DNA of 32,721 nucleotides. Source: a candidate division WS1 bacterium. Lineage in GTDB: Bacteria; Armatimonadota; Zipacnadia; Zipacnadales; Zipacnadaceae. A program made the position numbers and the translations under genes. The stretch lies in the NCBI GenBank assembly GCA_012523355.1, contig JAAYIR010000195.1, forward strand, positions 1 to 32,721. Direction: 5' to 3'. Below are positions 6,134-15,462 of the stretch, in pieces; position 1 is the first letter of the stretch, and each line of letters starts with the position of its first letter. The notes under the pieces are model-generated. The model did not search any database. It had not been told where the DNA came from and saw only the letters and a program-made list of their open reading frames with translations.

Positions 6134-7189
6134 ATGCTGGAGGTGTTCGAGCCGGATTTTGGCCGTTTTCTGCAGGTCCTCGGACGCGAAGGGGAGCCGG
6201 ACCGCGTCCCCTTTGTCGAGTTCTGGATTGACTACCGGGCCGGCGAGCCGCTGGCTGGGCCCCCGCCGCAGGATCCGGAGGCGTCGCCGGCCTATCGCAT
6301 CAAGTGGATGCAGGCACTGGGCTTTGACTACGTTATGGGGGTTCATACCTTCGGCTTTCCCCGGTCCGAGTACGGGCTGACGGCGGAGGACACTTCGGTG
6401 GAGCACCCTGACGAAAAACGCGGTTGGCGCGATGAGCATCGCGGGCCTATCCAGAGTTGGCAGGACTTCGAGCAGTACCCGTGGCCGGAGGTCCAGGACG
6501 CCAGCTTCGCCGACTTCGAGAAGCTGGAAAGGCTGCTGCCGGAGGGCATGAAGGTGTTGCCCACTCTGCCCGGCGGGGTGCTGGAGAACCTCGTTGATTT
6601 CTTCGGCTACGAACAGTTGTGCTTTGCCCTGATTGAGCAGCCCGACCTGGTCCGCGCCGTGGTGGAGGCCATTGGCTCGCGCGAGTTAGAGCTGGTCGAG
6701 ACGCTGGCGGACATGGACTGTGTGGGCGCCCTGCTCCTCAACGACGACTTGGGCTTCAAGACCCAGACCATGATCTCACCGGCCGACCTGCGCCAGTACG
6801 TTTTCCCCTGGCACGCCAGGATAGTCGCCGCTGCCCACCGGGCCGGCAAGCCCTGCATGCTCCACGCTTGCGGCAACGTGAGTGAGGTCATGGAGGACAT
6901 CATCGGGTATGGCATGGACGCCAAGCACTCTTTTGAGGACGTGATCCAGCCGGTGGCGGAGTTCAAGGCGCAGTACGGCGATCGCCTCGCGGTCCTGGGA
7001 GGCATTGACGTCAACGTCCTGGCGGCGGGGACGGAGGAAGAAGTGCGCGAGTACACGCGGCGAGTGATCGAGCAGTGCGCCCCGGGGGGCGGCTGGGCGC
7101 TGGGTAGCGGGAATAGCCTGCCCAACTACATCCCCTCGCGCAACTACCTGGCGATGCTGGACGAGGGGAAGAAGCACGGGGTGTACTAG
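6134..7189 (+). CDS. Uroporphyrinogen decarboxylase-superfamily protein (MtaA/CmuA-like methyltransferase type)
   Basis: AGKPCMLHACGNVSEVMEDIIGYGMDAKHSFED, RLAVLGGIDVNVL, GGGWALGSGNSLPNYIPSRNYLAML. Confidence 0.88.
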   Translation: MLEVFEPDFGRFLQVLGREGEPDRVPFVEFWIDYRAGEPLAGPPPQDPEASPAYRIKWMQALGFDYVMGVHTFGFPRSEYGLTAEDTSVEHPDEKRGWRDEHRGPIQSWQDFEQYPWPEVQDASFADFEKLERLLPEGMKVLPTLPGGVLENLVDFFGYEQLCFALIEQPDLVRAVVEAIGSRELELVETLADMDCVGALLLNDDLGFKTQTMISPADLRQYVFPWHARIVAAAHRAGKPCMLHACGNVSEVMEDIIGYGMDAKHSFEDVIQPVAEFKAQYGDRLAVLGGIDVNVLAAGTEEEVREYTRRVIEQCAPGGGWALGSGNSLPNYIPSRNYLAMLDEGKKHGVY

Positions 7190-7195
7190 GCCCTG

Positions 7196-7343
7196 TTCCC
7201 CGTAGGGGCGGCTTTTCCCGCGTCTGCGCGGGAATTGCCGCCCGTTCGTTGCGTGTCATTCCTTCTGGCCGTTGGGTCCCCGTCACAACGCGAACGGGCG
7301 GCAGGCTCGGCGCAGACGCCTCGCAAGCCGCCCCTACGGGGAA
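7196..7343. repeat. Long imperfect inverted repeat (about 50 bp arms), composite intergenic palindromic element
   Basis: Left arm ttccccgtaggggcggcttttcccgcgtctgcgcgggaattgccgcccgttcg; right arm cgaacgggcggcaggctcggcgcagacgcctcgcaagccgcccctacggggaa. Confidence 0.85.
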
Positions 7344-7353
7344 TGACGCAGAC

Positions 7354-7374
7354 GGCGCGGTACAAGTCCGCGCC
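7354..7374. repeat. GC-rich hairpin, possible intergenic palindrome
   Basis: GGCGCGG-tacaagt-CCGCGCC, perfect 7 bp stem. Confidence 0.6.
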
Positions 7375-7389
7375 CTACAGCCGGCGGAC

Positions 7390-7411
7390 GGCGGGGGACG
7401 TGGTCCCCGCC
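7390..7411. repeat. GC-rich hairpin between convergent genes
   Basis: ggcgggggac-gtg-gtccccgcc, 9 bp stem with a one-base bulge. Confidence 0.6.
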
Positions 7412-7416
7412 CCACA

Positions 7417-8544
7417 TTAGGCTTCGTCGGCGGCGATGTCTACCGCGATCAGGTCCAGGAAGCCCAGAGGCTGGGTCATTATCTGGTCAGTCCATAGCGG
7501 GTGCGGGAAGAAGGACCTGATAGTCAGGCTCTCGGCCAGCAGATAGAAGGCCGGTGGGGTCTGCTCCACCCGTAGCCGATCCAGGGCTACGGCCAATTCG
7601 TAGAGCGCCTCTCCGCTTACCTCCCCAGTCTCCACCACGTAGGCCACTCCCTCGGGCAGCGCTCCCAGCCGGGCATGAACCTCAGCCGTGGACCACATGA
7701 AGGCCCCGGGCTCTTTGCGGTGTTCCACTACCGTGAAGGAGATGCTCAGGGCCTTGTCGAGCGCTTGGCGCAGGGCGGTGTTGGGCTGCAACACGATTTT
7801 GGGTTCCACAAACTCGCGCCCCAGAAACAGCTCCAGCTCCAGGTAGCGCAGAGTCTCGTCGGGAGTCAGGGCACGGAAGTTAGCGCGGACGAACTCCTCG
7901 AAGCTCATCTCGCGGGCAATCTCCGCCAGCAGGTTGGGCTGGCCGGCGCAGTAGAAATTGGCACACTTCGCCGGCTTCCAGTCACCCGCGAGACAGCCGC
8001 CGGCGCCCAGGAACAGGCAGGAGGGTGGGGCCATTCGCCCGCGGCCGGTGTGGAGGCCTTGGAGCGAGACGTGGGAGGCCAGCGCTTCCAGGGCGCCAGG
8101 GAACTCGCGCAGCACACGGAGGACGTTGGCACGGATGGCCGAGAAGCGTAGGAGGAAGGTCAGGCCGTCGAGGGTCAGTTCCTCACCACTCTGCAGACGG
8201 TCGCAGAACAGACGCCACTCGGTCAAGCGCTCGCGCAGGACTGCCAGGTCCGACTGGCGATCGGTCCCCTGGCTGCGCTCCAGGATGCCAACGATCTGCT
8301 CGATGGCCTCCTGCTCGACGCGCATTTCCGCGCCGCGCTCCTGCAGGCCACTCTCCAGGCGGGCACGGGCCAGTGGGTCAAACAGTATGCCCTTGTAGAG
8401 ACGCCGGAGATCTGTACTGCCCATCATGGTGCCCTGGTGGCAGCAGGTCTTGCCGCAGGCGCCGCAGACCGCCTCGACGATGTCGAGTAGTTGCTGGTTA
8501 CATTGTCTTACCGAGCCAGCCAGCACGTCCACGGAAAATCTCAT
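7417..8544 (-). CDS. Cys-rich protein, possibly a divergent YkgJ-type (Fe-S/Zn cluster) protein
   Basis: CGACGKTCC near N-terminus and CLFLGAGGCLAGDWKPAKCANFYC centrally, resembling the CxxCxxxCC...C...RPxxC spacing of YkgJ-like proteins. Start uncertain (ATG 8544 or TTG 8613). Confidence 0.65.
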   Translation of the reverse strand: MRFSVDVLAGSVRQCNQQLLDIVEAVCGACGKTCCHQGTMMGSTDLRRLYKGILFDPLARARLESGLQERGAEMRVEQEAIEQIVGILERSQGTDRQSDLAVLRERLTEWRLFCDRLQSGEELTLDGLTFLLRFSAIRANVLRVLREFPGALEALASHVSLQGLHTGRGRMAPPSCLFLGAGGCLAGDWKPAKCANFYCAGQPNLLAEIAREMSFEEFVRANFRALTPDETLRYLELELFLGREFVEPKIVLQPNTALRQALDKALSISFTVVEHRKEPGAFMWSTAEVHARLGALPEGVAYVVETGEVSGEALYELAVALDRLRVEQTPPAFYLLAESLTIRSFFPHPLWTDQIMTQPLGFLDLIAVDIAADEA

Positions 8545-8651
8545 CCCCAAGAGACAGCGAAAGATCTGTAGCTGATTAACGTCAGAGAGCTGCGTTCGAC
8601 CTCCTGTGGACAAGTCCCGAGCAGGAGAACGGGACAGCCGTGTCCTACCGG

Positions 8652-9656
8652 CTAGACTGGTGCATAAGCGGCCAGAGACCCTGGAGCCGGAGAGAGGGGG
8701 CCATTGTCAAGCGTCACGAAACCATTCTCGTGAGCGAAGGGCATACCACCGGGCGCGTCGTCAGGACGGACAACGGGCAGATAGATGCCGCTCGTGGAGG
8801 CCAGATGCAGGACGAGGAGTTGATCTACCGGCCAGTCCCCGCCCAGAAGCGCGACCGGAACGGCCTCCGCAGCAGCGAAGGTGGCGATTTGCCGGGCACC
8901 GGTGAGGCCCCCGCAGCGGCGCAAGTCCACGCCCAGCAGGTCCACGGCTCCCTCCGTAAGCAGGCGTCGGAAGGCCTGCAAGCCCAGGGCGCGTGCTCCG
9001 GCTCCCAGCGGCACCTCCACCTGCCGCCCCAGGTCCCGGTATTCAGCTGCAGCCTCGACGGGGAGCAGATCCAGTATCCAGAAGGTTTCGGTTGCCTGAG
9101 CGCGCAAGGCCAGCCGCAGGGCGTCGTCGAAGTCGCTGGCGGGTTCCGAGAATTGCAGGAACAAGCGTATCTGATCACCCCAGCGGCGCCGGAGCTCCTC
9201 GGCGGACTGGAGAGCGCGCGCGGGACTGGAGTCGGTGATCCGGACTCCGCCCGGAGGAGACTGCGAGGCCTGCTTTCGTTCGGGAGTGAGGGAAACATAG
9301 GTGTCGCAACGGGGGAAGTAGCGTCCGCCGAGGAGCGCGTACAGGGGCAGACTGGCCTGGAGAGCAGCGAGCTGCCATAGAGCCAGGTCCAGCACACTCA
9401 GTGCCGCGGCAGCCGCCGGCTCCGGTTCGTGGCGCCAGTCCACGGTGAGCGCCATCCGCTCCCAGAGCGCTCCGTGCTCCAGCGGCTCACGTCCCAGGAT
9501 CAAGGGTTCCAGGTTCGCCAGGACTTCGGCTGCTTCGCCGGTCTCCACTGCCTCGGGCCAGGCACTGTAAGCCGTGACGCCGGTGTCGGTAGCTAGGGCC
9601 AGGAGCAGGGGTACGGGTCCCTCGGAACGGAGCAGAGTGGCGCTGTCTATGATCAC
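8652..9656 (-). CDS. Enolase-superfamily homologue (mandelate racemase/MenC-like), apparently catalytically degenerate
   Basis: Capping-domain pattern ALSVLDLALWQLAALQASLPLYALLGGRYFPRCDTYVSL and barrel segment LLTEGAVDLLGVDLRRCGGLTGARQIATFAAAEAVPVALLGG; the KxK and metal-ligand motifs are not found. Confidence 0.75.
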   Translation of the reverse strand: MIIDSATLLRSEGPVPLLLALATDTGVTAYSAWPEAVETGEAAEVLANLEPLILGREPLEHGALWERMALTVDWRHEPEPAAAAALSVLDLALWQLAALQASLPLYALLGGRYFPRCDTYVSLTPERKQASQSPPGGVRITDSSPARALQSAEELRRRWGDQIRLFLQFSEPASDFDDALRLALRAQATETFWILDLLPVEAAAEYRDLGRQVEVPLGAGARALGLQAFRRLLTEGAVDLLGVDLRRCGGLTGARQIATFAAAEAVPVALLGGDWPVDQLLVLHLASTSGIYLPVVRPDDAPGGMPFAHENGFVTLDNGPLSPAPGSLAAYAPV

Positions 9657-10333
9657 GAGTCGGCCTCCAGCCGGTGCCCCACGCCCGGAAGCGTGAGGAT
9701 GCTCGCCTGCGCGCCGGCCTCGCTCAGGCGGGCTCGCAGGCGGCCAAGGTGGACGTCCAGGGTACGACTTCGGGGCGGCAGCGCTTGCCCCCAGACCCGG
9801 TGGATCAGTTCCTGGCGCGGGTAGACCTGGCCGGTGCGAGCCAGCAGCGCAGCTAGCAGGTCAAATTCGCGCGGGGGCAAGGGTAGTTCCCGACCGTTGA
9901 CTGTGACCTCATGCCGTCGCCGGTCCAGGCGCAGATTCCCGGCTTCCAGGATGGGAGATGGGACAGAAACCGGGGCGGCTTGCTGGCGGCGCAGGAGGCT
10001 GCGCAGGTGGGAGACAATCTCTCGCGGGGTGAGCGTGGCCGGGATGACGTCACTCACGCCGGTCTGCAACAGGGCGATGGTGGACTCGCTGTCCTCCGCT
10101 AGCGTTGCTACCAAGACGGGTCGGGAGGCTGCCTCGACCAGACGCCGCAGTGGTGTGGGGTCCTGCCTGGCAGGCCACTGCACCAATAGGACCTCACACG
10201 TTCCCTCGGCGACCCGGGAGGCCGCCTGGCGGAAGGTCGGCGCAGGTTCCAGAAGCAGATCGCCACCGGCCTGTCCCCCTGCCAGCAAGCGGTTAGTGAA
10301 GTCCTCGGTTCCCCACACGCAGATGCGGGCCAT
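9653..10333 (-). CDS. OmpR-type winged-helix regulator with degenerate receiver domain
   Basis: C-terminal winged helix LPLPPREFDLLAALLARTGQVYPRQELIHRVWGQ...RTLDVHLGRLRARL...GVGHRLEA; N-terminal receiver-like fold ending in LRSLLRR but without the phosphoacceptor Asp. Overlaps the 8652-9656 gene by 4 bp. Confidence 0.85.
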   Translation of the reverse strand: MARICVWGTEDFTNRLLAGGQAGGDLLLEPAPTFRQAASRVAEGTCEVLLVQWPARQDPTPLRRLVEAASRPVLVATLAEDSESTIALLQTGVSDVIPATLTPREIVSHLRSLLRRQQAAPVSVPSPILEAGNLRLDRRRHEVTVNGRELPLPPREFDLLAALLARTGQVYPRQELIHRVWGQALPPRSRTLDVHLGRLRARLSEAGAQASILTLPGVGHRLEADS

Positions 10334-10336
10334 AGG

Positions 10337-10909
10337 CTATTCTGAGGCGGAAGACTGCTGCTTTTCCATGAAGTCGAGCACGTCAGACAGCCCGAAACGC
10401 CGCGGGTTGCCGCGTGTGCGGAAGCACTTAAGCAAGCAGCGGATGGTGTAGCGGGGCACGGAGGTCGCGCAGACGCCAAGCAGGGTGGCGGTCTCCTCAA
10501 TGCTGAGCACTGGATCGAGCAGGCGTTCGATAAGCTCCTCACGGCTCTCGCGGGCGGCAGAGCCACGAGTGGGGGGCTCCGTCTCTTCGACCTCCAGGGG
10601 CAAGCGCTGTTGACGGCCCAGTAGTAGTTGTAGGCGTCGGCTCTGAACCTCGGGAGGGTTCAGGTCGCTGGGCACAGTCGGCACCCGGCCCGAAGCTGCC
10701 CGTGGAGCCGGTGGCTTCACCTGTGCGGGCGGCGTCCTCTCTGGCTCGATTTCGGTCGTGTCCGGTGCGGGCTCCGTCGCCGTGGTTTCAGGCTCAGTCG
10801 CGGAGTCTTCCGGGGCCTCCGGCTTCTCCGGCTCAGACGCTGGTTGGTCGGGAAGGGAGCGGCGAGTCGCCGCGCGCTCACGGTATCGTAACCATTCGTG
10901 CATCAACAT
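10337..10909 (-). CDS. Helix-turn-helix (MerR/excisionase-like) protein with long Pro/Glu/Thr-rich N-terminus
   Basis: C-terminal LLDPVLSIEETATLLGVCATSVPRYTIRCLLKCFRTRGNPRRFGLSDVLDFME resembles HTH_17-type domains; low-complexity N-terminus. Confidence 0.75.
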   Translation of the reverse strand: MLMHEWLRYRERAATRRSLPDQPASEPEKPEAPEDSATEPETTATEPAPDTTEIEPERTPPAQVKPPAPRAASGRVPTVPSDLNPPEVQSRRLQLLLGRQQRLPLEVEETEPPTRGSAARESREELIERLLDPVLSIEETATLLGVCATSVPRYTIRCLLKCFRTRGNPRRFGLSDVLDFMEKQQSSASE

Positions 10910-10920
10910 AGGATCTCACC

Positions 10921-10937
10921 CCGGCCTGAAAGGCCGG
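10921..10937. repeat. GC-rich hairpin between TPR gene and HTH gene
   Basis: CCGGCC-TGAAA-GGCCGG, perfect 6 bp stem; no T-tract. Confidence 0.6.
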
Positions 10938-10956
10938 CCTGTGCAGCTCTAATCGT

Positions 10957-12657
10957 CTACGGATTGGCGTTGGCCTGCGAAGGAGACGCGGACCAGGAGC
11001 GGGGCAGCGCCACCGCCTCCTGATGCTGTCTCTCGGCCTGGGCGCGCATATTCGCTGCCCCGGTGTCTACATAGACCAGGGCGTTCGTAGCCGCCTCGGT
11101 GGCCAGGGCGTAGTACACCATGCGCAGGTCATAGCTTCGTTGATGGGCGGGGAGAGGCTTCACCTCGGCGGCAAAATCACGGATCTTCTGCATCTGCTGA
11201 ACCGCCGTGCGCAGTCTGGTGTAGGCTTCCTCACGGGTCATCTCCCGTGACTTCTGATCCAGCGCTTTGAGCAGGCTGAATGCCTCCTCCAGGGCCTCGG
11301 CCACCACGCCGTCGCAAGCGGAGAACATCTCTTCAAAATGGGTTGCGGTGTCTTCGGAAGCCTGCGCAGCCTCCTGATAGGCGGTGAAGGCGGCGCCAAA
11401 TTGCAGCGCGGCCATATACATGCGCCCCAGCTCCAGGTAGGCCTCGGCTCTCGCCTCGCCCTGGGAAAGCGCAGCGATCTGAGCATAGGTCTCCTCGGCG
11501 GCGGGCAGCAGGTTGCGGTCGCGGTAGGCGCGGCTGAGGGCGGTGAGCAGGGGTAGGTTCTCAGGGCTAGCCTCAGCACCAGCCCGCAGGGTCTCCAGGG
11601 CCAGGGCCGGCTGCCGCTGACGTTCGTACAATGCACTGAGTTGCAGGTATGCCGCGGGAGCCTGAGGCCGGGCGGCGATCGCCTGCTGCAGGAGCTCCAC
11701 TGCCGGCTGCCAGAGCCCTCGTGCAGCCTGTAAGCTAGCCAGCTCCAGGCGGGGCTCGTAGAGTGTAGGATCCAGCGCGATGGCGGAAACCAGGGAGACG
11801 CGCCGTTGTTCATCATTCTGTAGCGAGGCATAGGCCCGCGCGCGAAGGAGTAGCGCCGGGATCTGGGGCGCCCCCTGACGGATAGCCCCGGCGATCAAGT
11901 CCAGCGCACGGGAAGCATCGCCCTTACTGAGGGCCTCACGCGCTGCTGCCAAGGGGTCAGGAGACGCGGAGGGCAGGGTTTGCACCAGGGTAGCAGGCGC
12001 AGCGACCTCAGGCGGCGACGGCGCAGGAAGGGGGGAAGCGGGGGGAACCTCCGGCTCCGGGGGTGGGGGAAGAACCTGTGTGGCTGATGTCGGGGGAGGA
12101 GGAGGCAGAGCAGGCTGCGTTTCCGGTGCTACCGGCGTCGCTTGCGCCCAGCCCTGGGTGAGCGCTCGGGCCGCCAGGCTGGCCAGCAAGTCTGCGTCCT
12201 GCGGCATACGCAGGGAGGGCTCGGAGACCTCTATCTGGCGCACCTGCCCCGCCGCGAGGCGAGCCCAGACTATCTCCACGCTGCCGCCCTGTGGGGTGAT
12301 CTGTAGCGCAAGACGCGCGACCTCGTCCAGGTGGAGACGCTGGGCCAGTTCCAGGAGCCGGGAGTAGACCTGGTCCGGTGGGGCGGTGCCCAAGGCGGTG
12401 AGGAAGTCCTTACTCAGACCGGCGGCATTGACGAGAGCCGAGTCGGCTGTCAGCATTGTGCACCGGTTGTCGCCCTGGGCCAGCCGAGGCAGCAGAGCAT
12501 CGGCAAATGCGGCAGCGCCGGTCGGCGACTCGGAAGCCAAGACGACAATTACTCCGCGAGTGAGACCCCCGGGGGCTGGTTCAGCGAGCGACGCGCTCAC
12601 CGCTGTAAGCAAGCAGAGGGAGCACACCTGGATTGTTGCAGCCCAGGCTACTCGCAT
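10957..12657 (-). CDS. Secreted TPR-repeat protein with proline-rich linker
   Basis: Signal-peptide-like N-terminus AATIQVCSLCLLTAVSASLAEP; Pro-rich segment; repeated TPR-like helices (e.g. APAAYLQLSALYERQRQPALALETLRAG). Confidence 0.85.
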   Translation of the reverse strand: MRVAWAATIQVCSLCLLTAVSASLAEPAPGGLTRGVIVVLASESPTGAAAFADALLPRLAQGDNRCTMLTADSALVNAAGLSKDFLTALGTAPPDQVYSRLLELAQRLHLDEVARLALQITPQGGSVEIVWARLAAGQVRQIEVSEPSLRMPQDADLLASLAARALTQGWAQATPVAPETQPALPPPPPTSATQVLPPPPEPEVPPASPLPAPSPPEVAAPATLVQTLPSASPDPLAAAREALSKGDASRALDLIAGAIRQGAPQIPALLLRARAYASLQNDEQRRVSLVSAIALDPTLYEPRLELASLQAARGLWQPAVELLQQAIAARPQAPAAYLQLSALYERQRQPALALETLRAGAEASPENLPLLTALSRAYRDRNLLPAAEETYAQIAALSQGEARAEAYLELGRMYMAALQFGAAFTAYQEAAQASEDTATHFEEMFSACDGVVAEALEEAFSLLKALDQKSREMTREEAYTRLRTAVQQMQKIRDFAAEVKPLPAHQRSYDLRMVYYALATEAATNALVYVDTGAANMRAQAERQHQEAVALPRSWSASPSQANANP

Positions 12658-13934
12658 AGCTTCATCTTGGCGCGCACCGTGACCAGGGCGTTGTCGAGGG
12701 CTCGCGCCTGCTCAGGATGAGCGGCCTTCTGCTCCTGATAAGCGGTGACGGCCTTCTGGTAGGCGGCCAGGGCCTCCGCCTTGCGGCCTTGCTGCAGGAG
12801 ACTATCCCCCTGGGCGCGGTAGTCCTCGGCGCGCACCGCAGGCGGGGGCGGTGGCCGCCGGCGCCCACTGATCTCCACCTTGATCATGGGCTGCTCGGTG
12901 GCGGGAGTGGCTGAGGCGGCCGGAGTTGCTGAAGCCGTCGGAAGGGCCGAAGCCGGGGGCGGCTGTGCCGTGGTTTCACCCGTTGCGGAAGTGCCCGGAT
13001 ACCCCGGCGGCTGAATGGGTTGTAGGCCTTCGGCCCGGGGAACCGGGGGCGCCAGGAGCGGGGGTGTGGGCGCGGGCGTGGGCTCGGTGGGTTGCCAGGG
13101 ATTGCTGAGTGGACGGATCTGGACATCGCCGCCGCCGGACGGAGCGGTCACCGGCGGGGGCAAGGGCAAGCCCGTAGCCTCCCCGGTGGCAGGAGCATAG
13201 GGGTTGGTAAGGAACGGATTCCCGGTCGGCGCATAGAAGACGGGGAATTGGCCGGCTGGAGTCCCGGCCTGCCGGGCCTGCCGGAGGGCGGCGTTGTAGT
13301 AGGAGTTCGCGGTTGCGTCCTTGGGCCGCAGGCGCGCGGCCTGCGCGTATTGGGCAGCGGCCTGGGCGTATTGGCCCTGGCCATAGTACTGATTGCCGGC
13401 GTCCATTGCCTGCTGGTATTGCCTGTGGATGACCTGGTTGCGATGGCGTACCACCAGCAGCAGCGCCAGGCTCATGATGAGCAGGACCGCGGCCGCGGTG
13501 AGGATGACCAGGGCCAACGGCTGCAGGCGGCGGAGGTGCTCCTCCTTCTCCTCGGGGGAGGGTTCCTGGGCTTCCAGCTCCTCCATCTCCCGGCGCAAGG
13601 CCTCCAGACGCTCGGCCTCCACCTCACGCTCCGGGTCCAGCTCCAGGAGTTGCTCGTACAGTCCGATAGCCAGGTGCCGATTGCCGGCTTGCTCCTCGGC
13701 CATGGCCAAGAGAGCATAGGCGTCCGCCGAGGCGGGATACTCCTCCAACTCCTCTCGGCACAGCACTGCCGCTTCACCTATACGGCCGAGCGCAAGGAGG
13801 TTAGTAGCACGATGGAGCCGGGAGGGATGCGGGGTCTCCACCACGGGAAGTTGGGAGGTATCCTCCGGCGATGCGGACTCAGACGGAGTGGTGTCCGGAG
13901 TGACGGGCAACAACCTGGTACGCGAATCGTCCAC
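12648..13934 (-). CDS. TPR-repeat membrane protein with proline-rich region
   Basis: TPR-like segments at both ends, TM helix LALVILTAAAVLLIMSLALLLVV, Pro/Ala/Thr-rich central region; GTG start preceded by an extended SD (GGGAGGTGATC). Confidence 0.85.
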   Translation of the reverse strand: MDDSRTRLLPVTPDTTPSESASPEDTSQLPVVETPHPSRLHRATNLLALGRIGEAAVLCREELEEYPASADAYALLAMAEEQAGNRHLAIGLYEQLLELDPEREVEAERLEALRREMEELEAQEPSPEEKEEHLRRLQPLALVILTAAAVLLIMSLALLLVVRHRNQVIHRQYQQAMDAGNQYYGQGQYAQAAAQYAQAARLRPKDATANSYYNAALRQARQAGTPAGQFPVFYAPTGNPFLTNPYAPATGEATGLPLPPPVTAPSGGGDVQIRPLSNPWQPTEPTPAPTPPLLAPPVPRAEGLQPIQPPGYPGTSATGETTAQPPPASALPTASATPAASATPATEQPMIKVEISGRRRPPPPPAVRAEDYRAQGDSLLQQGRKAEALAAYQKAVTAYQEQKAAHPEQARALDNALVTVRAKMKLCE

Positions 13935-14011
13935 TGAAGATCACCTCCCACGAGAATGGCGCCAGGTTCAGGGCGTGTACCTACTAAACCCGTGAGCCAA
14001 TACGCAAGTTC

Positions 14012-14025
14012 CGCCCTGCAGGGCG
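14012..14025. repeat. 14 bp perfect palindrome in leader of TPR operon
   Basis: CGCCCTGCAGGGCG. Confidence 0.6.
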
Positions 14026-14084
14026 CTATGGACCGCAGCAGTACAGCTTTCCACGAAAAACTTGGAAAAGTCTATACAACTGCA

Positions 14085-14113
14085 ATTGTACGAAGCCCAC
14101 CCGGTAGTGTCAA
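14085..14113 (-). promoter_or_regulatory. Near-consensus sigma70-type promoter TTGACA-N17-TACAAT for the leftward TPR/HTH operon
   Basis: On -: TTGACA (14113-14108), 17 bp spacer, TACAAT (14090-14085), about 150 bp upstream of the GTG start at 13934. Confidence 0.7.
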
Positions 14114-14150
14114 GGATGGCTCACAGTCATTGGCTAAGTCGAGGTTGGTC

Positions 14151-14191
14151 GGGGCGGAATCTGCGCCCCAGGACGTTGCTCCTTGGGAGCA
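14151..14191. repeat. Two adjacent small hairpins upstream of the UroD-like gene
   Basis: GGGGCG-gaatctg-CGCCCC (14151-14169) and TGCTCC-ttg-GGAGCA (14177-14191). Confidence 0.4.
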
Positions 14192-14322
14192 GGTAGTCTA
14201 TCTCCTGTGGGGGAAGATTGCTCAGTAGCATGGGCAACCGGGGTCCACTGCTGTCTCTGAGCGGCCGGACCTTCCCGTGTCGCGTAAAGACGGTCTGTAT
14301 CTTCTGGAGTGAGGGATAGTAG

Positions 14323-15462
14323 ATGCTGACACCTCGCGAGAACCTCTTGACCATGCTGCGCCATGAGCGGCCGGAGTGGACGCCGGTCTTCGGGCATGTG
14401 GACAATTACAGTCAGCCCAACCGACGGGGCATGGATCCCGAACTGGAGGAGAGACTCTTCTGCACGGAGGGCCCGGATCAGCGGACCGTGGAGTTTTCGC
14501 GCAATCTGGGACTAGACATCGCCGATCTCTATCCCGTGCCGTTGGTTGCCACGTCGCCGCGGGTGAGGATGGAGGAGCACCGCGAGAAAGAGGTGCTCAC
14601 CAGCGTCTGGCACACGCCAGCAGGTGATTTGCAGGAGGTCAAACGCTACTCACCCGGTACGGGTCTGTGGTATACCCAGGAGCACCTGGTCAAGACCAAG
14701 CGGGATCTACCGGCGCTGGCGGCATTGCATGAGGATCAGGAATTCGCGCTCAGCCCCGATCTCCTGGAGTTGACGCGAGCGCGGCGACAACTGATTGGCG
14801 AGGAGGGCCTGCTTCTCTTGGGCCTACCGGGCACGCCGCTGGGGCAGATGGTGCGGGTCTACGCCGGTGCCGAGAGTCTGGCTTACCTGTGGGCCGACGC
14901 GCGTGCCGAGTTAAGGGCGACACTGGAGGTGATGGGCGAGAACTACGAGCGCTGGTGTCGCCTGGCCGCACAAGTCGAGGAAGCCGAGGCGCTAATCACC
15001 ATGGATGACACCTCGACCACCACCCAGTCGCCAGCGATGTTCGAGGAATTCTGCCTGGGCTACACTGACCGCATGGCAGATATCTGCCATGCCGCGGGGA
15101 AGTTCTATCTGCATCATTCCTGCGGACTGATCCGGGATCTGCTGCCGCTGTATGCGCAGACACGGATGGATGCTGTGCACGCCTTCACCATTCCGCCCGT
15201 GGGGGACGTGGCCATCGCGGAGGGCAAGGCGGTGCTCGGTTCCAGGATTGCCCTCCTGCCGATCGTGGTGCAGCTCATGGGGGACATGAGCGATCGGGAG
15301 AAGGTCATGCAAGGCCTGGAGGAGATGTATGCCGAGGCCGGGGAAGAGAATGTGGGGTTCTGGTTCATCGCGGACCCGGAGAAGGACATGGAGGACCATG
15401 CCTGGTTGGCGGGGGAGTGCCTGCGGCTGGCACGGAAGCCTCAGAGGGAGATCCGCACATGA
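14323..15462 (+). CDS. Uroporphyrinogen decarboxylase-superfamily protein (MtaA/CmuA-like)
   Basis: MLTPRENLLTMLRHERPEWTPVF N-terminus; AGKFYLHHSCGLIRDLLPLY H-x-x-C-type segment; C-terminal barrel. Confidence 0.8.
   Translation: MLTPRENLLTMLRHERPEWTPVFGHVDNYSQPNRRGMDPELEERLFCTEGPDQRTVEFSRNLGLDIADLYPVPLVATSPRVRMEEHREKEVLTSVWHTPAGDLQEVKRYSPGTGLWYTQEHLVKTKRDLPALAALHEDQEFALSPDLLELTRARRQLIGEEGLLLLGLPGTPLGQMVRVYAGAESLAYLWADARAELRATLEVMGENYERWCRLAAQVEEAEALITMDDTSTTTQSPAMFEEFCLGYTDRMADICHAAGKFYLHHSCGLIRDLLPLYAQTRMDAVHAFTIPPVGDVAIAEGKAVLGSRIALLPIVVQLMGDMSDREKVMQGLEEMYAEAGEENVGFWFIADPEKDMEDHAWLAGECLRLARKPQREIRT

Follow-up and report, generated by a model that had tools for sequence, protein, structure and literature searches.

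A gene cluster conserved across Zipacnadales, with a single conserved promoter and probable autoregulation by a MerR/BldC-like protein

A run of six genes, here called A to F, lies at 7417–13934 of a 32,721-nucleotide stretch of DNA (the window, taken at its full length) and raises a question: do these genes form a unit, and, if so, what controls it? As contig C58, the window belongs to a metagenome-assembled genome of 3.24 Mb from the order Zipacnadales of the Armatimonadota; the names Candidatus Zipacnadia and candidate division WS1 both denote the armatimonadotal class Zipacnadia (PMC10290634). The answer that we favor, with moderate confidence, is that the genes belong to a Zipacnadales-specific operon that has one conserved sigma70-type promoter and is autoregulated by the product of C, and that this operon would be an envelope-tied control locus assembled stepwise. 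An earlier note, made from the letters alone, had placed six genes on the minus strand and had described them as encoding two tetratricopeptide-repeat (TPR) proteins, a helix-turn-helix (HTH) protein, a pseudo-receiver regulator, a pseudo-enolase, and a Cys-rich protein. All six open reading frames (ORFs) were found as described, and Pfam agreed with these assignments, F having no family. The features are as follows:

14085–14113, minus strand: promoter upstream of gene A, TTGACA-17-TACAAT, an 11/12 match, conserved.
14041–14067, no strand assigned: candidate operator palindrome, GTACAGCTTT-N7-AAACTTGGAA, with 1 mismatch, just 3' of the -10 element.
12648–13934, minus strand: gene A, a protein arranged as TPR, transmembrane helix, Pro-rich stretch, TPR.
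10957–12657, minus strand: gene B, with a signal peptide, a small alpha/beta domain (residues ~33–168), a Pro-rich linker, and a TPR superhelix.
10910–10956, minus strand: 47 bp between B and C, including a small GC palindrome close to the C ribosome-binding site.
10337–10909, minus strand: gene C, a MerR/BldC-like HTH regulator.
9653–10333, minus strand: gene D, an OmpR-type winged helix with a degenerate receiver (atypical response regulator).
8652–9656, minus strand: gene E, a mandelate racemase/muconate lactonizing enzyme (MR/MLE; enolase-superfamily) protein.
7417–8544 (or 8613), minus strand: gene F, a Zipacnadia-specific protein with eight invariant Cys.

To compare gene order, we fetched the corresponding regions from relatives, several of whose contigs break off within it. 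The order A-B-C-(D)-E-F is found repeatedly among the families of Zipacnadales; it is conserved over six of them and stays strict though protein identities fall to 21–40%. Because the same order recurs, the cluster is not a product of chance, and its description as a coherent unit held up in this comparison. Gene B is present in 41 of 41 genomes of the order and gene F in all 19 of those of good quality, and E-F adjoin D in most genomes. Homologues scattered without their neighbors, which would have spoken against a unit, were for the most part not encountered; the exceptions are a detached E-F pair in five genomes and the loss of single genes, D being absent from the locus in the three genomes of family f3 that were examined and in G021 and G023, and E being missing in G003. 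The cluster has been inherited vertically within the order, with no match to a defense family or a mobile context.

How did this arrangement arise? Of 291 Armatimonadota genomes, 218 contain a match to C, and almost all of these contain just one. The usual place of C in outgroup families is between queA and a GT4 glycosyltransferase gene, in that order, often with a DUF2905 gene before queA; in one outgroup (G263), A and B also lie upstream of this DUF2905-queA-C-GT4 synteny. Zipacnadales genomes still have queA, though away from the locus; in the genome of the window, contig C223 carries it. The two class outgroups, G286 and G287, have A-B-DUF2905-C-D and no E; G287 carries F after D, on the opposite strand. 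These layouts point to stepwise accretion, starting from A-B-DUF2905-C, to which first D and F and afterwards E were added. The ancient core is C; in Zipacnadia the locus lost queA and acquired D, E, and F. F is confined to the class: it occurs in 36 of the 291 genomes, 34 of these in Zipacnadales, and a scan of a genome collection gave 29 loci with record titles including Zipacnadia, WS1, and Armatimonadetes. Two aspects of the earlier description thus had to be given up. The cluster is not a free-standing six-gene module, since C is ancient and has housekeeping neighbors (DUF2905, queA, GT4), with D, E, and F added in the class or order; nor is six its usual number of genes, as most genomes have a gene for a DUF2905 membrane protein between B and C. 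The window has lost this gene, and 47 bp remain in its place.

The near-consensus promoter proposed upstream of A is real by conservation. It is the only sigma70-like site in 7100–14500, where shuffles gave an expectation of 0.6 at a laxer threshold, and only 2 of 2000 shuffled versions of the upstream region contained an 11-of-12 match. The window cluster has no comparable internal promoter and no sigma70-like promoter before E or F. All of the relatives examined (19/19) have TTGACA (TTGACG once), a spacer of 17 or 18 bp, and TAnnnT upstream of A.

A second conserved element accompanies this promoter. In most genomes it follows the -10 by a few to ~17 nt; in family f2 it lies inside the -35/-10 spacer. 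A related element adjoins all 20 of the A promoters, and it resolves to the palindrome GTNNARSTTT-N7/8-AAASYTNNAC; some genomes have direct repeats in addition. Outside the building set, the element profile matches the same place in L038, L051, and L068, and a profile of promoter plus element does so in L047. The window contains a single match to the palindrome (14041–14067; 0 in 100 shuffles), and the N7 form occurs once in the window's entire genome. As an independent test we used 305 kb of outgroup loci: four sites were found at ≤1 mismatch, all of them at the head of the C operon (families f41, f42, f43, and f45), while the reversed control gave 0 and ten Markov shuffles gave 1 in total.

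Which protein, then, would read this element? Loci without D (L083, L095) still have it, which disfavors D, and so do loci that lack all of A, B, D, E, and F (L131, L133, L134). As C is the one gene that is always linked to the operator, we infer autoregulation by C through the palindrome, which is probable and well supported by the comparative evidence. In the mechanism that we propose, C would bind GTNNARSTTT-N7/8-AAASYTNNAC beside the promoter and would most likely repress the operon. An RNA element was also considered; Rfam found nothing in the window and three loci, and this argues against it, as does the placing of the operator, which can lie within the promoter or upstream of it.

C has an HTH_17 domain (at the Pfam cut-off), an invariant N-terminal ML-H-W motif, and an RQ-x-x-LP-x-[ED] segment; its profile finds a cobalamin-binding regulator and BldC as relatives in the PDB. 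BldC of Streptomyces belongs to a family with a MerR-like winged HTH (PMC5859096), and C has such a domain, matching PDB entries 6ama and 6amk with E values of 3.5e-5 to 6.4e-5. Moreover, the operator region in several genomes reads partly as ~10-bp direct repeats, the kind of site to which BldC binds, in head-to-tail multimers; the published BldC sites consist of direct repeats, and one of them is placed unusually for repression (PMC5859096). C differs from BldC, however, in carrying ~130 extra N-terminal residues with invariant motifs of their own, so that it is not a winged-HTH-only protein, and in scoring 15.6 bits against an NCBIfam BldC cut-off of 77; the conserved operator is also mainly an inverted repeat. 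C represents an undescribed regulator family with a concrete, testable DNA site that could be assayed in cultured armatimonads.

Several observations weigh against the autoregulated operon that we favor. Some concern its transcript: E-F lie apart from A-D in G009, G010, G011, G013, and G026, and the B-C, C-D, and E-F gaps reach 100–340 bp in some relatives, so that one transcript from A to F cannot be taken for granted. The five detached pairs, and the G287 locus with its inverted F and no E, speak for two transcripts, A-B(-DUF2905)-C-D and E-F, adjacent by history only. We nevertheless consider two transcripts rather unlikely, given the 4-bp overlap of D and E, the place of E-F next to D in most genomes, and the lack of a sigma70-like promoter before either E or F in the window. 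A further point is that the evidence for an envelope role consists of a transmembrane helix, a signal peptide, and TPRs.

Other such observations concern the operator, which could belong to an unlinked regulator. In many genomes the palindrome patterns are more frequent than in the reversed control, and motif variants occur near gyrB (L157, L175), ribonucleotide reductase (L196, L204), mutS (L208), RNase H-like genes (L209, L210, L215), and mraZ (L242, L243), all named by eye from translations; in family f26 the pattern is abundant, and the listed sites are not at C. The palindrome might then be the site of a global regulator, for example of LexA or cell-cycle type, with the operon as one member of its regulon and C acting elsewhere. 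This seems to us unlikely: every strict site in the outgroup loci is at the C operon, and the only N7 site in the window's genome is that of the operon under study. Several of the extra sites fall inside coding sequence, and the wider site set therefore includes chance matches. A bolder variant would make C and its palindrome a phylum-wide Armatimonadota regulon that includes replication and division genes. C would then be a cell-cycle-type regulator, unrecognized so far, and the Zipacnadia additions to it would be an envelope scaffold, a response regulator freed from phosphorylation, and a pseudo-enolase. We give this version little credence; many of the sites listed lie away from promoters, the attempt to firm up a phylum-wide regulon did not succeed, and the wider regulon is, on these motif matches, a lead only.

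The same note had claimed that the cluster encodes two inactivated homologues, and residue comparison agreed for both D and E. D has a Trans_reg_C winged helix of the OmpR/PhoB type (Pfam, E=3.5e-20) and a receiver match of only E=0.3; in the window protein the acidic pair, the phosphoacceptor Asp, and the Lys are all replaced, and the receiver is thus not of the phosphorylatable kind. The receivers of the D proteins of G286 and G287, on the other hand, are complete, with an acidic pair, LDLML, Thr, and Lys. Within Zipacnadales, where many reference starts are truncated, no readable member retains the Lys, and none of the five members with an N-terminus long enough to read retains the acidic pair; four members keep Asp at the phosphoacceptor column. 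D resembles the atypical OmpR/PhoB regulators HP1043, ChxR, and RitR (PMC12632262, PMC8345958) in combining an OmpR-type winged helix with a receiver that lacks the phosphorylation chemistry and in having canonical ancestors. It differs from them in being restricted to Zipacnadales, in lying beside a BldC-like regulator, and in having no histidine kinase in its operon. How bacterial pseudo-receivers switch is described as an open question (PMC12632262); in our proposal, D would be a response regulator that has become independent of phosphorylation.

E exceeds the Pfam cut-offs for both MR/MLE domains (PF02746, MR_MLE_N; PF13378, MR_MLE_C), and its nearest PDB entries are 4ggb and 5olc. Window E differs from that family in lacking the Lys-x-Lys motif, two or more metal ligands, and the His: it reads R/-/Q/L/A/L at the K1/K2/D/E1/E2/H positions. 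Of the 23 sequences compared, 7, from family f5 and genus g13, keep all checked ligands and catalytic residues; in the window's genus, family f3, and others, most are lost. The ratio of nonsynonymous to synonymous substitution rates (dN/dS) in degenerate E pairs is 0.13–0.35, in the range of the other five genes; such values argue that degenerate E is still under purifying selection. Judged by its residues, window E is a pseudo-enzyme kept in the operon, and we picture it as a retained enolase-fold protein whose catalysis would have been lost in the window lineage. The suggestion that the cluster is regulatory or sensing rather than metabolic is thus upheld in part: C and its operator speak for regulation, but setting metabolism aside does not hold in general, as the catalytic residues of E are intact in several relatives.

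Would these losses instead mark a functionally mixed neighborhood, in which unrelated genes share a housekeeping promoter while E and the D receiver decay under relaxed selection? Across the phylum, C has housekeeping genes (queA, GT4) as neighbors, some genomes lack D or E, and E appears to have lost catalysis in several families. We find this doubtful, however, since dN/dS of the degenerate E pairs is similar to that of A, B, and D, the order is kept at such low identities, and the eight Cys of F are invariant. The locus displays two decays in traceable order, a response regulator becoming phosphorylation-free within a class and an enolase-superfamily enzyme becoming, in several lineages, a pseudo-enzyme still under selection.

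The eight invariant Cys of F are C50, C53, C57, C58, C199, C207, C217, and C222 (numbering of the 398-aa ORF). No F searched matched a Pfam family, and no PDB fold matched at E≤0.001, the AlphaFold2 model having a predicted local distance difference test (pLDDT) score of 85. YkgJ-type CxxCxxCC proteins (PF03692) likewise have eight Cys, in a similar C-x-F...C...[RK]P-x-x-C register. F is different in its length (360–400 aa) and C-terminal alpha/beta half, and membership was rejected: there is no Pfam match, a PF03692 family search misses F, and the profile comparison is insignificant. We suggest that F is a cysteine-cluster protein, probably metal-binding. Near F, several genomes of the order encode an unusual fusion of a DEAD-box helicase with a C-terminal OmpR-type winged helix (Trans_reg_C), for example at L057:5311-7977 (888 aa). 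Small LuxR/sigma70-region-4-like HTH proteins also adjoin F in several genomes, including the class outgroup G286 (L056:5574-6125, by Pfam; L050:11826-12392 and L109:1667-2311, by eye).

A and B might link the locus to the envelope. A has TPRs (Pfam), a transmembrane helix, and a Pro-rich stretch, and its relatives carry an N-terminal zinc-ribbon-like motif. B has a signal peptide, and its AlphaFold2 model (pLDDT 86) consists of a small alpha/beta domain and a TPR superhelix; a fold search returned TPR matches only, leaving the N-terminal domain without placement. Membrane-anchored A and exported B might form an envelope-side scaffold; the envelope and sensing steps are speculative.

The junctions are as tight as had been reported: A and B overlap by 10 bp (12648–12657), C and D are 3 bp apart (10334–10336), D and E overlap by 4 bp (9653–9656), and the B-C gap is 47 bp. 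The reported 107-bp E-F gap holds if F starts at ATG 8544 and shrinks to 38 bp with TTG 8613; since homologues begin near residue 28, a start at 8544 or slightly downstream is favored. Good ribosome-binding sites precede A and C, and the palindrome CCGGCCT-TTC-AGGCCGG, within 10910–10956, adjoins that of C, where it might exert translational control.

Our literature searches found no description of the six-gene cluster. Consistent with the statement that it is no known pathway or defense system, PADLOC was negative; an anti-phage system was rejected, the matches being weak and partial (generic HTH, TPR, and CARF models). Two plus-strand genes for URO-D-domain proteins lie one on each side of the cluster (6134–7189 and 14323–15462). 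Between the first of these, which is convergent with F, and F itself is an imperfect inverted repeat at 7196–7343, with 53-nt arms (81% complementary) and a 42-nt spacer, which resembles a miniature inverted-repeat transposable element or a terminator.

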